From assembly GCF_022711995.1 (NCBI RefSeq), contig NZ_JALAHI010000048.1, positions 1-56,986 of the forward strand: DNA of 56,986 bases. The letters are read 5' to 3'. The position numbers were made by a program, and so were the translations under genes. Below the pieces are notes generated by a model, which saw only the letters and a program-made list of their open reading frames with translations, was not told the origin of the DNA and did not search any database. This document shows positions 2,006 to 8,034 of this stretch, one piece after another (within the stretch, counting starts at the first letter, position 1; every line of letters begins with the position of its first letter). This DNA comes from Enterococcus sp. GTDB lineage: Bacteria > Bacillota > Bacilli > Lactobacillales > Enterococcaceae.

Positions 2006-2812
2006 CTAGAAAGCCGGAAGCAATGTGTCGCTGTGCTCATTTTCCAAAAATTCTTTGACTTTATCGCTGGTCATCGCTTTGCGGAGGACTTTGATTTTTT
2101 CTGAGTCTTGGTTGTCTTTGCGAGCAACCAAAGAAATTGCAAATCGGTCATCAATCGTTTTTTCTAAAAACAAGGCATCGTCAGGCTTTAGACCAATTTT
2201 GGCGATGTAGGTTGGATAATTGTAGACAAGGGAAACATTGGGTTCATTGTAGGCTTCTGCAAGATTTAATAGATCCACAGACAGCCATTCAAAATTTTTA
2301 GGATTGGCTGTGATGTCTTTGATCGTTCCATTGACCCCTACGCCATCTTTTAATTCGATTAAACCTTGTTCAGCTAGAATGGCTAGTGCTCGTCCTTCAT
2401 TGGAAACATCGTTTGGCAAAGCGACTTTGGTTCCATCAGGGATATCTTCAATTTTTTTGTACTCTTTTGAATAAAAACCAACTTTTGCATTATAAATTTT
2501 GTCCAGTGCCACTAGATTCGCTGATTTTTCTTCGTTATACCGCTGCATATAAGGCTCATGCTGTGCGAAGTTTGCGTCGACTTCTTTATTATTCAACAGC
2601 TCGTTGTATTGAATATTATCATTCACTTGGACCAATTCAATTTTCCAGCCATCTTCTACCGCATCGGCTGCTACTTTGACAACATCTGTCATCGGTGTCG
2701 TTTGAGAAGCGACTTTGATCACTTTATCCTCCGATTGCGACTGATTGCTCGTTCCACAAGCCCCAAGAAGTGTTGCTGCTAGTACAAATCCAAGAAATAT
2801 TCCTTTTTTCAT
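2006..2812 (-). CDS. NlpA/MetQ-family substrate-binding lipoprotein of an ABC importer
   Basis: This is a 268-residue extracytoplasmic binding protein. The signal peptide ends in the lipobox LLGAC with the lipidated cysteine at residue 19. The mature part is NlpA/MetQ-like (the VASQTTPMTDVV start, then FAQHEPYMQRYN and VSLVYNYPTYI). The family mainly contains methionine-binding proteins, but other substrates occur. It is the last gene of an operon lplA, ATPase, permease, binding protein, nine bases after the permease gene. The first gene is lipoate ligase and no methionine riboswitch or T-box is seen, so I leave the substrate open. Start at 2812 has an AGGAG ribosome site. Confidence 0.88.
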   Translation of the reverse strand: MKKGIFLGFVLAATLLGACGTSNQSQSEDKVIKVASQTTPMTDVVKVAADAVEDGWKIELVQVNDNIQYNELLNNKEVDANFAQHEPYMQRYNEEKSANLVALDKIYNAKVGFYSKEYKKIEDIPDGTKVALPNDVSNEGRALAILAEQGLIELKDGVGVNGTIKDITANPKNFEWLSVDLLNLAEAYNEPNVSLVYNYPTYIAKIGLKPDDALFLEKTIDDRFAISLVARKDNQDSEKIKVLRKAMTSDKVKEFLENEHSDTLLPAF

Positions 2813-2820
2813 TCTTACTC

Positions 2821-3489
2821 CTACTTTCTTTTATCCATTTTTTTTGCTAACTTATTCCCTAATAATTGAAGGATAAAAACAGCTATGATCATCAGTATAA
2901 TAGCAAAATACATGACACCATATTCATAGCGTTGATACCCATAACGAATGGCAAAATCACCGATTCCTCCTCCACCTACAATTCCCATAACAGTTGAATA
3001 GGAAACCATGCTGATAATCGTCGTAGTCAAAGACAAGATCAAACCGCTTCGTGCTTCCACCAGTAAAAATTCTTTAACATATTGATACGTCGAGACGCCT
3101 AATGAGCGTGCCAATAATCCGACATCTTCAGGAACATCCAGCAGTACCTGTTCAACTAATCGTGCGTAAACCACAATTGCCACGATGCTTAGTGGAATGC
3201 TGGCGGGGATTGGGCCAAAAGAACTGCCTAATAGAAACCGAGTGACGGGAATCATGGCGACGACAAATAATAAGTATGGAAATGATCGGACGATTGTAAT
3301 CAATAAATTTAGCACTTGGTACAAAAAGGTGTTTCTGCCACCACTTTCGCGACTAATAAACAAAAGGATGCCTACTGGAAGGCCAATCAAAATAGCAGCA
3401 GAAATGGAAATACCCATCATAATCAAGGTTTCTTTCAAGGCCTGTACTAATTCCGGCGAATAGTACAAAATGCTTTCACTTAGAGTCAT
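2821..3489 (-). CDS. MetI-like ABC importer permease
   Basis: This 222-residue membrane protein has about five hydrophobic segments and the MetI-type inner-membrane fold. The cytoplasmic coupling region EDVGLLARSLGVSTYQYVKEF, about residues 140-160, contacts the ATPase. It forms the channel of the importer with the neighbouring ATPase and lipoprotein. The start at 3489 lies inside the 3' end of the ATPase gene (14-base overlap) with a GAGGAG site 8 bases upstream, which suggests coupled translation. Family assignment is firm; methionine as substrate is not shown. Confidence 0.88.
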   Translation of the reverse strand: MTLSESILYYSPELVQALKETLIMMGISISAAILIGLPVGILLFISRESGGRNTFLYQVLNLLITIVRSFPYLLFVVAMIPVTRFLLGSSFGPIPASIPLSIVAIVVYARLVEQVLLDVPEDVGLLARSLGVSTYQYVKEFLLVEARSGLILSLTTTIISMVSYSTVMGIVGGGGIGDFAIRYGYQRYEYGVMYFAIILMIIAVFILQLLGNKLAKKMDKRK

Positions 3490-4198
3490 GATTCAAGCTC
3501 CTCTTCACGCGAGCTACATAATCTAGCGTTTCTTTTTGCATAAGATGAGGCGTATTAGGCAATTCTGCTACGATTTTCCCTTGCTCCATCACATAGACGC
3601 GCTCACAAATTTGGCGTACTGCTGATAATTCATGGCTAACAAATACGATGGCCGGATGGAATGTGCTATGAATTTTTTGCAACAATGCTAAAACATCGCC
3701 TTTTGTGTCTTCATCCAATGCACTTGTGGGTTCGTCACACAAAAGAATTTTTGGTTCTTTGACCAATGCTCGTGCAATGGCGACTCGTTGTTTCTCTCCT
3801 CCGCTTAGGGAAGCAGGATACATGGAGCCCTTGTCAGACATACCGACAAAATCTAAAAAGTCCATCACCGGTTGCTGCGATTTTCCGGCTAATTTTAACG
3901 GTAGACAAACATTTTCATACACCGTCAAATTATGGAGTAGATTAAATTGTTGGAAAATCATCGCAATATCCTGCTGAACTTTTCGCTTCATTTTCTTGGT
4001 CAATCCCCCGGTACTGACGCCATCAATCACAATTTCGCCTGCAGAAGGTGATTCAATCAGATTAAGCAGGCGCAGTAAGGTAGATTTACCAGAACCGCTT
4101 TTACCAACGATACCAACGATTTCGTTTTGAATGGTTAGTGATACCTGATCAAGGACGGTGGCTTGATAAACTTGCGAAACTTGTTTTACTTCAATCAT
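3476..4198 (-). CDS. MetN-like ABC importer ATPase lacking the C-terminal NIL domain
   Basis: This 240-residue ABC ATPase has Walker A GKSGSGKST, signature LSGGEKQRVAIARAL and Walker B ILLCDEPTSALDE. True MetN proteins are usually about 340 residues because of a C-terminal ACT-like (NIL) domain that senses methionine. Here the chain ends soon after the D-loop and H-loop (FVSHE) region, so that domain is absent. The ATG at 4198 was chosen over an in-frame GTG at 4207 because GAGG sits 8 bases before it. It follows lplA by 31 bases and overlaps the permease gene. Confidence 0.88.
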   Translation of the reverse strand: MIEVKQVSQVYQATVLDQVSLTIQNEIVGIVGKSGSGKSTLLRLLNLIESPSAGEIVIDGVSTGGLTKKMKRKVQQDIAMIFQQFNLLHNLTVYENVCLPLKLAGKSQQPVMDFLDFVGMSDKGSMYPASLSGGEKQRVAIARALVKEPKILLCDEPTSALDEDTKGDVLALLQKIHSTFHPAIVFVSHELSAVRQICERVYVMEQGKIVAELPNTPHLMQKETLDYVARVKRSLNHDSK

Positions 4199-4229
4199 GT
4201 ACGTCACCTCACTTTCCTAGAATGTTGAT

Positions 4230-5243
4230 TTAATTGAAAAGGAGTGACACAAATTGATCATTTGTCAGTTGATGGATGTATTTATCAACTTTCACACCTT
4301 GTAAATGATGTCGCAATGCTTCATTATAAGGAAGACCAATCAGCTCTTTTTCAAGACCATGGATGTCTTCTTCGCCAAAAAAATCCCCAGTGATTTGTGC
4401 TTCTGTGATTTTACCCTTGGAAACTGAAAAGCGCAGCTCAACGATGCCAACCTTGTCAAAACGTTTGCGCTTTGTCCATTGATAATTAGGGGCTTCACCA
4501 TAAATCCATTGATCGTTAGCATAACGGCTTTGATACAACTGATCGATTGCCCGTTGGTCTTCAGCGGTTAAAACGATTTCTTTTTCATGAATTTCTTCAA
4601 TATTCTCAACATTATATATATGACAGAGCAATTGATCACGAAATTCCATCGTCGACAACTGCTGATATTCCTCAGAAAGATAAGGCTTGATGTTGGTGAC
4701 ACTTTTACGAACGGATTTTGTTGCTTTTGAAGCAATTTTTTCTTGGGGCACGTTCAATACTTTTGTTAAAATACTTAAATCCACATCGAACATCAATGTA
4801 CCGTGGGAATAACTTCGGCCATTTTTCGTATACATGGCATTGCCGGAGAATTTCTTTCCTTCAACAAATAAATCATTTCTCCCTCGAACTTCAACCCCTT
4901 TTGCCCCCATCTTTTGCAATGCTTTTAAAATCGGTTGTGTCGCACCATGGTAATCACCAAAATGAGTCGCATCTTTATCTGTGACAAAACTAAAACTCAA
5001 ATTGCCTAGATCATCATAAACTGCTCCACCTCCGGAAGTTCTGCGGGTTAAAACGATGTCATTTTCTCGTAAATAGTCAAAATTTATTTCTTCATAAGCA
5101 TTTTGATTTCTGCCAATTATAACACATGGTTTTTGTATGTATAACAGTAGGCACGGTTCTGAAATATCTACGTTATTCATTAAATATTCCTCCGTTGCCA
5201 GATTGATACGAATATCCTTATTTTGCATTCGATAAAATCTCAT
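4230..5243 (-). CDS. lplA: Lipoate-protein ligase A
   Basis: This 337-residue cytoplasmic enzyme activates free lipoate with ATP and attaches it to the lysine of lipoyl domains (E2 subunits, GcvH). It shows RRTSGGGAVYDDLGN (about residues 67-81), KKFSGNAMY with the catalytic-region lysine, and GTLMFD. The C-terminal accessory domain of long-form LplA is present. It is the first gene of the operon that continues with an NlpA-type ABC importer, an arrangement that suggests uptake of lipoate or a lipoylated compound feeding the ligase (inference). Start 5243 is preceded by GAGGTGGG. Confidence 0.93.
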   Translation of the reverse strand: MRFYRMQNKDIRINLATEEYLMNNVDISEPCLLLYIQKPCVIIGRNQNAYEEINFDYLRENDIVLTRRTSGGGAVYDDLGNLSFSFVTDKDATHFGDYHGATQPILKALQKMGAKGVEVRGRNDLFVEGKKFSGNAMYTKNGRSYSHGTLMFDVDLSILTKVLNVPQEKIASKATKSVRKSVTNIKPYLSEEYQQLSTMEFRDQLLCHIYNVENIEEIHEKEIVLTAEDQRAIDQLYQSRYANDQWIYGEAPNYQWTKRKRFDKVGIVELRFSVSKGKITEAQITGDFFGEEDIHGLEKELIGLPYNEALRHHLQGVKVDKYIHQLTNDQFVSLLFN

Positions 5244-5393
5244 ATTCCCACCTCATCGTGATTTCTGTTTGACGCATTCTAATCCTCTCGTTAATCATAA
5301 GAAAAAGCAAGAAATATGCTTAAAAACAAAAGTTTTTTTATTCCTCACCATTCTGTATCATTATTTCAAATACTGTGTTACATTATTTCTCCA

Positions 5394-5424
5394 ACAAAAA
5401 AATGCTTGAAGCCAAAGCTTCAAG
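5394..5424 (-). terminator. Intrinsic terminator after the CBS-domain gene
   Basis: A perfect 12-bp stem (AATGCTTGAAGC, CAAA loop) is followed on the minus strand by a T run at 5394-5402. It isolates the lplA operon from the gene upstream. The remaining 5244-5393 is an AT-rich promoter region with no riboswitch or T-box that I can see. Confidence 0.88.
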
Positions 5425-5431
5425 CATTTTA

Positions 5432-6808
5432 TTAGCGACGAGGTTCGTCTTCTTCAAAATCTTTTTTGAAATAGCGTCTTTCTTCTTCAGGTTCAACGGC
5501 AGTTTCTTCAGGATCATGGAAAATAACCCGAATTTTTAATACGCGAGAACCTTCTATTTCTTCTGTGATCAATGTGACATTATCTACTTTAAAGGAGAGT
5601 TTCTCTCCTTCGTCAGGGATTACTCCTAATGCTGTGATTAAATACCCAGCCATCGTATCAACATCACTCATGTGCAAACTCATATCGAAGGCTTCATTGA
5701 AGTCGTCGATCAGCATACGTCCTTGGATGATGTACTCATGTTCAGATACTTGTTCATACAATTCTTCTACTTCATCCGACTCATCATCAATCTCACCAAC
5801 GATTTCTTCTAAGAGGTCTTCCAACGTAACCAGACCAACGACACCGCCGTATTCGTCTAATAGAATAGCCATCTGGTTTTGTGTCTTTTTCAATTCATAG
5901 AGTAAGTCGTCAATAAAAACAGTTTCAGGTACAAATAATGGTTCTTGTAGGATTTGTTTGATATCTAATGTTTCAAATCCATTTTTATAGGCAAATTTCA
6001 GCAGGGTTTTGGTATGCAAAACACCTACGACTTTGTCCTTGTCCTCATTATATACTGGGATTCGAGAATAGTTTTCCGCTAAAATTTCAGTCAAAATTTC
6101 ATCTACTGAATCATTGATATCGACCATAAATGCAGCAGTTCGCGGCACCATTACTTCACGAGCCACTTTAGTGTCTAAAGAAAAGATTCCTTGTAGCATT
6201 TCCAATTCATCTTCTTCAAAAACACCTTCTGTTTCTAACATATACCGCATTTCATCCCGGGTCATTTTCGTATCTTCATCATCAAAATCCATTGGTGTGA
6301 TGCGAGCTAACAAACTGGTTGAAGCAGAAAGCAGCCACACAAAGGGTTTCGCGATCGTACCGATTACACGGATGACACTTGAAGTGAATTGAGCCACTTC
6401 TTCGGATTTGTTCATCGCAATTCGTTTTGGATACAATTCTCCAAATACGATCGAAACATAGGTCAAAATCGCCAATACGATGATGTTCGCCAAGCTTTTC
6501 GCTGCAGCTCCACCACCTAAGACTGGGGCTAATTCTGATGAAAGTGTATCTGCCAGTGAGGCCCCTGATAAGATGTTGACCAATGTAATCCCAACTTGGA
6601 TCGTTGACAAGAAGTTGGTGGGATTGTCAATGATTTTTAATAATTTTTGTGATTTGACATTGCCTTCCTCAGCCTTTTGTTCGACACGGTTCTTATTAAC
6701 TGAAACAACCGCGATTTCTGAAGCAGCCAAGAAAGCATTGATCAATGTCAAAACGATCAATAGTAAAATTTGCGCTAGTAGCGACTGACTCTCGGGGTCA
6801 GCATTCAT
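5432..6808 (-). CDS. HlyC/CorC (TlyC) family membrane protein with CBS domains
   Basis: This 458-residue protein has the family's standard order. An N-terminal DUF21/CNNM-like membrane domain with about four hydrophobic segments spans roughly residues 8-190. A CBS pair follows (about 205-330, with [12 protein letters not shown] and [23 protein letters not shown]). A C-terminal CorC_HlyC domain and an acidic, charged tail complete it. Relatives such as MpfA and CorC are linked to magnesium tolerance; the old hemolysin label is not supported by anything here. Start 6808 has AAGGAGA upstream, and terminators flank the gene, so it is monocistronic. Confidence 0.9.
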
Positions 6809-6838
6809 AATAGCATTCTCTCCTTATTTTTTCATTTT

Positions 6839-6866
6839 CTAAAAAAAATCGTGGGTTAGACCCACG
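6839..6866 (-). terminator. Intrinsic terminator after the AI-2E family gene
   Basis: The stem TCGTGGGT/ACCCACGA (6848-6855, 6859-6866) with a three-base loop is followed on the minus strand by at least seven T residues. It lies about 45 bases after the stop of the upstream gene. Confidence 0.9.
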
Positions 6867-6909
6867 ATAAAATCGTATCATAAAGCTTTTTTCTTTGCAA
6901 TAAAAACCA

Positions 6910-8034
6910 TCAGTTATCCATCTCAATCAATTTCTCTTGATTTTTCTTACTTTTATCGTCGCGAATCAAATGAACGATAAAAATCACGATGGTACGACAA
7001 ATGGCATAGAAAGGTACGCCTAAGAAGATTCCTAACAGTCCGGCGATATTTCCTGCGACTAACAACACTAAAATGATGGTTAGCGGATGAATCGCCAGCG
7101 ACTTGCCGATTACATTCGGGTAGATCACGTTTCCATCCAATTGTTGAACAACTAGGACAACCACACAGCAGAGCAATGCGCGAAACGGATCATCAAAGAT
7201 CGTGACTAATACTGCCGGAACCAACCCTAAATATGGTCCTAAGTAAGGAATCAAGTTAGTGATCCCTGCAATGACACCAAATAAAAAGGCGTAATTAACA
7301 CCTACCAACCAATAGCCGATAAAGGTAAAGGTGGCAACAAAAATACATTCAATCGCTTGTCCACTAATGTAATTAGACAATGTTTTATTCAAGTCACCCA
7401 GTAACTCGATGATTTGTTTTCGTCTTTTTTCAGGCAAAACCGACTGAATATTTGGCACAAGTTTCTCGCCATCTTTCAACATATAAAATAAGATGAATGG
7501 TACTGTAATAATGATCATCGTTGCAGAAGCAATCGTTCCTACGATGGATCCTAGGCTTGTAGATAGACCGCTCAAAAATTGCTGCAGCAATGATCCATAG
7601 GATAAATTAAGGTTTTCAAGCTGTTGCGCAAAGTCGATCTGTTTAAACATCGGATCATCTGCTAATTTAGAAATCCAGATTTCCATGTTTTTTGCAAAAG
7701 TAGGAATATTTTCTGCAAGTTGTGAAATTTGGTTAATCAGATTTGGAATCACACTCACGATTGTCAGGACTATAGCTGCTACCAATAAGAGCAAAACTAA
7801 AATCACTGCATAAATTCTTTTGATCTTGGTCGTTTTCATCAGAAAGACGACGATTGGATTTAGTAGATAATACAAAAATCCGGCAATCAAGACTGGCGCA
7901 AATAATGTTGAAAAAAATGTTCCTACCGGTGCAAATAAGAAATTGATCTTGCTTAGGACTAAAACCAGTGTTGCAAGAACTAAAATTTCTAAAGACCAGA
8001 AGAAAAGTTTTGATTGTTTGAATTTGTCGAACAA
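6910..8034 (-). CDS. AI-2E family transporter (PerM/YtvI-like membrane protein)
   Basis: This protein of about 374 residues has roughly eight hydrophobic segments and the AI-2E/PerM family layout, including the conserved region GVIAGITNLIPYLGPYLGLVPA and a soluble stretch around residues 115-170. The family exports small molecules or acts in Na+/H+ exchange, and the substrate here is unknown. The open frame extends to a TTG at 8076, but AAGGAGGG lies 7 bases before a TTG at 8032-8034, and a TATAAT at 8057-8062 would start transcription downstream of 8076. I therefore place the start at 8034. Confidence 0.87.
   Translation of the reverse strand: MFDKFKQSKLFFWSLEILVLATLVLVLSKINFLFAPVGTFFSTLFAPVLIAGFLYYLLNPIVVFLMKTTKIKRIYAVILVLLLLVAAIVLTIVSVIPNLINQISQLAENIPTFAKNMEIWISKLADDPMFKQIDFAQQLENLNLSYGSLLQQFLSGLSTSLGSIVGTIASATMIIITVPFILFYMLKDGEKLVPNIQSVLPEKRRKQIIELLGDLNKTLSNYISGQAIECIFVATFTFIGYWLVGVNYAFLFGVIAGITNLIPYLGPYLGLVPAVLVTIFDDPFRALLCCVVVLVVQQLDGNVIYPNVIGKSLAIHPLTIILVLLVAGNIAGLLGIFLGVPFYAICRTIVIFIVHLIRDDKSKKNQEKLIEMDN

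Follow-up and report, generated by a model that had tools for sequence, protein, structure and literature searches.

Why should the gene for a lipoate–protein ligase stand at the head of an operon whose other members encode an importer of the NlpA/MetQ family, and what does such an importer carry? Lipoyl synthase was not found in enterococci or in nearly all of the relatives that we sampled (of 105 genomes sampled from the family, 3 gave a lipA), which implies that enterococci must scavenge lipoate; and we know of no established route by which they bring it across the membrane. The locus considered here lies within a stretch of 56,986 nucleotides, the whole of which we refer to as the window, and comprises the following features:

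4230–5243, minus strand: lplA, lipoate–protein ligase of 337 residues and first gene of the operon (TIGR00545, PF21948, PF10437)
3476–4198, minus strand: short MetN-like ATPase of 240 residues, without a NIL domain (PF00005)
2821–3489, minus strand: MetI-like permease of 222 residues (PF00528)
2006–2812, minus strand: NlpA-type substrate-binding lipoprotein of 268 residues (PF03180, lipobox)
5244–5398, minus strand: region before lplA, in which neither a riboswitch nor a T-box was found

The four genes form one tight operon. From lplA to the lipoprotein gene the gaps are 31, −14 and 8 bases, i.e., the ATPase gene begins at an ATG (position 4198) 31 bases past the lplA stop codon, with a ribosome-binding-like GAGGTG six bases before it; the ATPase and permease genes share 14 bases; and the lipoprotein gene starts 8 bases past the permease stop. 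(An alternative ATPase start, a GTG at 4207, lies 22 bases past the lplA stop and would yield a protein of 243 residues.) Both the coordinates and the Pfam and NCBIfam assignments agree with the gene order given in a first-pass annotation of this DNA.

The ligase scores 415.1 bits against the equivalog model TIGR00545 (cut-off 280) and has both the catalytic and the C-terminal domain (PF21948 and PF10437 in Pfam), and the lipoprotein, whose lipobox LLGAC contains Cys19, is placed in the NlpA/MetQ family by a score of 204.1 bits against PF03180 (cut-off 27). The AlphaFold2 model of the lipoprotein has a mean pLDDT of 84.7, and the nearest solved structure is 4ntl, i.e., EF3198 of Enterococcus faecalis. 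The permease falls below the cut-off of the NCBIfam MetI model (152.5 bits against 212), as does the ATPase with its best NCBIfam model, MetN (211.6 bits against 499.7, over model positions 1–221 of 343); in Pfam the ATPase matches PF00005 and, partially, P-loop families, with no NIL domain. We assign the genome to the E. gallinarum group, its nearest named relative among the compared loci being E. gallinarum L037 (lipoprotein 96%, LplA 91%, PrfC 99%).

The shortness of the ATPase and its want of a NIL domain, both pointed out in the first-pass annotation, hold when it is set beside the importers encoded elsewhere in the same genome, which encodes four NlpA lipoproteins of full length and shows one further match that is weak and partial. 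Two of these lipoproteins sit in complete MetNIQ operons of the kind that the annotation had proposed to look for: their MetN proteins, of 358 and 344 residues, carry the only two NIL matches in the genome. Each of these operons is preceded by a T-box leader, with AUG as the likely specifier at both (from alignments read by eye), and the two already look built for methionine. One of them has a tandem pair of T-box leaders (L008:2162–2722), and there is no plus-strand open reading frame of 40 or more residues between the T-boxes and metN. Another NlpA lipoprotein (L010:6473–7393, contig C123) has no importer genes directly adjoining it and carries Thr where the pocket His would be. Three proteins with an LplA/LipB-type domain are encoded in the genome, and a second LplA, 45% identical to that of the window, lies elsewhere in it; lipA was not found in this genome.

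Nor did we find a methionine-responsive leader before lplA, in keeping with what had been claimed at first reading. An Rfam scan of the whole window returned no family at gathering score, and a permissive scan of positions 4200–5450 for T-boxes and riboswitches gave one match at chance level, with the same library that detected the T-boxes of both MetNIQ operons; three other lplA-linked loci (L042, L047, L079) likewise gave no T-box with this library. If a terminator-like stem at 5399–5430, after the gene preceding lplA, ends the preceding transcript, the lplA leader is at most about 155 bases; by count this stem is weak (1 found versus 2.9 in shuffled sequences), and no promoter-like site above chance was found before lplA.

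The ligand pocket of the lipoprotein also bears on what might be carried. We take the contacts of E. coli MetQ with methionine to be Y69, F86, H88, Y91, R144 and N202, placed by motif and spacing (the spacing that equates N202 with N213 of Neisseria meningitidis is off by one or two residues), in addition to N229. In N. meningitidis MetQ, according to PMC6739813, R156, N213 and N238 (the last equated there with E. coli N229) hold the amino and carboxyl groups of methionine, Y81, F98, H100 and Y103 surround its thioether, and putting Ala in place of N238 lowers the affinity for L-methionine by a factor of more than 10^5. At the seven corresponding sites the window lipoprotein has, by sequence alignment, N66, A83, H85, Y88, R141, Y199 and I226, and so keeps 3 of the 7 methionine contacts; Asn198 adjoins Tyr199, and a one-residue shift of the alignment is possible there.

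This pattern (N, A, H, Y/F, R, Y, I) recurs in all 29 lplA-linked rows of a pocket alignment of 92 rows, 89 of them different (a few linked rows are near-copies, and two are identical): every linked row has Tyr for N202, Ile for N229, Asn for Tyr69 and Ala for Phe86, and every one keeps the Arg. The pocket is nearly uniform throughout the 77 rows of the main clade (mostly Lactobacillales, with Jeotgalicoccus and family f48), whether or not lplA is linked; the Arg is kept in 77 of 77 and either Asn in none. Among 11 sister rows from other Bacilli, the Arg is always kept, N229 is always replaced by Ile, and N202 is kept once. Both Asn are kept in 4 of 4 MetQ-type rows; the three NlpA paralogues in the window's own genome have them. 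In the available text of PMC8416018 we found no passage on the pocket residues. Two lineages deserve separate mention: the importers of Jeotgalicoccus (L065–L069 and L071, at about 5960–7660) have two tandem lipoproteins, the second with His where the window lipoprotein has Tyr199 and Phe where it has Ile226, perhaps for a second ligand; and in Brochothrix campestris (L070:5944–6767) the reading frame of the lipoprotein is broken into two.

With the Asn pair lost and the Arg kept, the head of an alpha-amino acid would be left without partners while a partner for a carboxylate remains, and the replacements of Tyr by Asn and of Phe by Ala would widen the aromatic cage. To judge from the aligned residues, such a pocket fits, without proving, a larger ligand that bears a carboxylate, for which free lipoate would qualify. 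Our favored reading, to which we give about an even chance, is that the window encodes an importer of free lipoate within a lipoate salvage operon; we infer this, and with it the ligand, the direction of transport and the role of each pocket residue, from two sources, the lplA linkage and the pocket. On this model, the lipoprotein would bind free lipoate outside the membrane, with Arg141 holding the carboxylate and the chain and ring occupying the position of the MetQ aromatic cage, widened here; the permease and the short ATPase would bring lipoate in; and LplA would attach it to lipoate-dependent enzymes. Because the ATPase has no NIL domain, intracellular methionine would not shut import down.

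The main alternative is that the importer carries another organic acid, one that is not an alpha-amino acid and is the same throughout Bacilli, with lplA as a stable passenger or co-regulated gene in Enterococcus. We regard this as rather unlikely. The sameness of the pocket in linked and unlinked rows of the main clade is what it would predict, as is the loss of both Asn in 10 of the 11 sister rows, but a ligand common to all of these importers could equally be lipoate. Against it stands the tenacity of the pairing with lplA within the family. (Family names here rest on named loci: we treat f1 as Enterococcaceae and f8 as the family to which Vagococcus belongs.) A homologue of the ATPase at E ≤ 1e-60 occurs in 22 of 59 genomes, our own included, and lplA is directly upstream in 17 of the other 21; one of the remaining four loci, L036, begins right at the end of a contig, which leaves it uninformative. 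When a profile of the lipoprotein was run over the 105 genomes of the family, the scores fell into three well separated groups: a top group of 404–490 bits (45 hits in 44 genomes) that constitutes the clade of this importer, a middle group of 340–356 bits (12 hits) that constitutes the EF3198 clade, and a group under 195 bits that is of methionine type. In 40 of the 45 members of this importer's clade, lplA lies on the same strand, 1402–1512 bases upstream of the lipoprotein gene; of the other five, one (G100) cannot be judged, its contig ending at the ATPase gene, and no lplA-like reading frame was found in the stretch examined at G008, G094, G122 and the second copy in G026. A separate search gave 36 named loci, which overlap with the family genomes: lplA adjoins the importer in 26, all of them among the 28 loci from Enterococcus, Vagococcus and unclassified Lactobacillales, and is adjacent in 0 of 8 loci from Jeotgalicoccus, Brochothrix and Alloiococcus.

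Plain conserved synteny is unlikely to be the cause of this pairing, since the outer neighbors vary: the 29 linked loci (the window, the 26 named loci, L169 and L196) have 14 different upstream neighbors, some of which are short reading frames and maybe not genes. In G028 the hlyX...prfC surroundings are retained with lplA but without the importer; in G125, a sulfatase-domain gene comes next after lplA, and then a gene that we take to encode a protein like elongation factor P; the same two genes (48–64% and 81–88% identical) follow the importer in G008 and G100. These neighborhoods suggest that lplA and the importer formed an old joint locus and that either the one or the other has since been lost from it. 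In quick trees with SH-aLRT support only, the unlinked lplA genes are nested among linked ones, and 6 label changes are needed in each tree, which we read as repeated loss after an old pairing, although a second gain is also possible. Against the lipoate reading, several genomes of the family have this lplA with neither this importer nor lipA (e.g., G028, G029, G031, G124 and G125). The three genomes with lipA, all of one genus, keep this type of lplA and lack the importer of this clade. Replacement of uptake by synthesis would leave just that combination, but they represent one lineage only, and G029, of the same genus, has neither importer nor lipA.

Outside the family the picture is different, and here the alternative of another organic acid draws its remaining support: most sampled loci have no lplA, and many carriers have lipA. 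At E ≤ 1e-75, 111 of 395 genomes from Lactobacillales and 80 of 398 from Bacilli match the importer profile (the two samples overlap). We hand-picked 40 importer loci from outside the family and found lplA no more than 3.5 kb away in 2 of them, both from family f8, and the importer with a nearby lplA was seen in at least two further genomes (G571 and G611). Thus the expectation of the first-pass annotation that lplA and the short ATPase would prove a conserved pair holds within the family and for some Vagococcus, but not beyond; and since the linkage is mostly absent outside Enterococcus and Vagococcus, the importer is probably older than its pairing with lplA. Among the listed genes beside unlinked importers, we saw no coherent pattern that would hint at another ligand. 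In two of the 40 loci, both unlinked (L178:2713–3906 and L185:7054–8244), the nearest gene on one side encodes an M20 peptidase, which may point to an acylated or peptide-like ligand at these two.

Two broader arguments did not survive. Co-occurrence with lplA was dropped as proof: an LplA-type protein is present in 69 of 69 importer-positive Lactobacillales genomes outside the family and in 10 of the 11 importer-negative ones that were included (another 8 were not), and with a ligase that is nearly universal in the order, co-occurrence says little. We likewise rejected the idea that lipoate auxotrophy drives where the importer occurs. Outside Lactobacillales, 71 of 72 importer-positive genomes have lipA, and with so many such carriers lipoate need does not explain where the importer is found; in Lactobacillales outside the family, 6 of 69 importer-positive and 0 of 11 importer-negative genomes have it. 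In several Lactobacillales (G558, G599, G042, G592, G677 and G738), lipA directly adjoins an LplA-type gene.

The first-pass annotation had left the ligand wider than free lipoate, naming lipoamide, lipoyl-lysine and short lipoylated peptides as well. Import of such bound forms, later opened by a lipoamidase, would account for the lplA linkage equally well, and E. faecalis does have a lipoamidase (as reported in PMC2753649). However, retention of the Arg and loss of the Asn pair, which would have received an amino-acid head, favor a plain carboxylate over lipoyl-lysine or lipoyl peptides, and neither a lipoamidase nor a peptidase was found among the reading frames and Pfam matches of the four-gene operon, so that we consider bound lipoate improbable. 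Linkage, pocket and the failure to find lipA support lipoate as the candidate, and most of the genome surveys that the annotation had proposed turned out in its favor; the pocket would narrow the earlier proposal to the free form. That this is a third importer for methionine or a methionine derivative, the lplA linkage being meaningless for the ligand, agrees with its family membership and its MetI- and MetN-like partners, but we reject it as the main reading and hold it to be very improbable, given that the Asn pair for methionine and two aromatics of the cage are replaced, that NIL domain and T-box are missing, and that two complete MetNIQ operons are already present.

Importers of the NlpA type with short ATPases form a subfamily that is spread through Lactobacillales and has a sister group among other Bacilli. 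It is conceivable, though we lean against it, that this whole subfamily, of which EF3198 and the lplA-linked operon would be members, has left methionine and imports lipoate; were this true, it would be, as far as we know, the first ABC importer for lipoate that depends on a substrate-binding protein. The solved structure 4ntl, from the EF3198 clade, is one on which the idea can be tested. Whether the ligand is free lipoate or another carboxylate, methionine importer is a poor name; the pocket residues provide a simple rule that separates these importers from methionine importers, and by this rule the name metQ does not suit the genes of this clade.

In the open-access literature (subscription papers and preprints being outside its scope), we found no lipoate ABC importer of the NlpA kind. 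An ECF-type lipoate transporter was reportedly suggested by Rodionov et al. in 2009 and is, like the window importer, a proposed lipoate importer; but ECF transporters use an S component and no NlpA lipoprotein, and are a different transporter class. PMC6609329 cites that study when naming lipoate among possible substrates of ECF transporters. With MetNIQ of E. coli and N. meningitidis (PF03180), the window importer shares its three-part architecture and fold, and E. coli MetQ is 32% identical to the window lipoprotein, with His88, Arg144 and an aromatic residue at 91 common to both. The window system differs in its lplA linkage, in the absence of NIL and T-box, and in the replacement of Asn202 by Tyr, Asn229 by Ile, Tyr69 by Asn and Phe86 by Ala. 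The nearest solved relative is EF3198–EF3200 of E. faecalis, an operon that is reported to be raised in blood (PMC2766626). EF3198 is 46% identical to the window lipoprotein, and an EF3198-like locus (L077) has the pocket letters of the window except for Phe in place of Tyr88 and Leu in place of Ile226, together with an ATPase that is likewise short and without NIL. In the EF3198 clade, however, lplA is adjacent in 0 of 12 loci (E ≤ 1e-40; four also inspected gene by gene), compared with 40 of 45 in the clade of the window importer.
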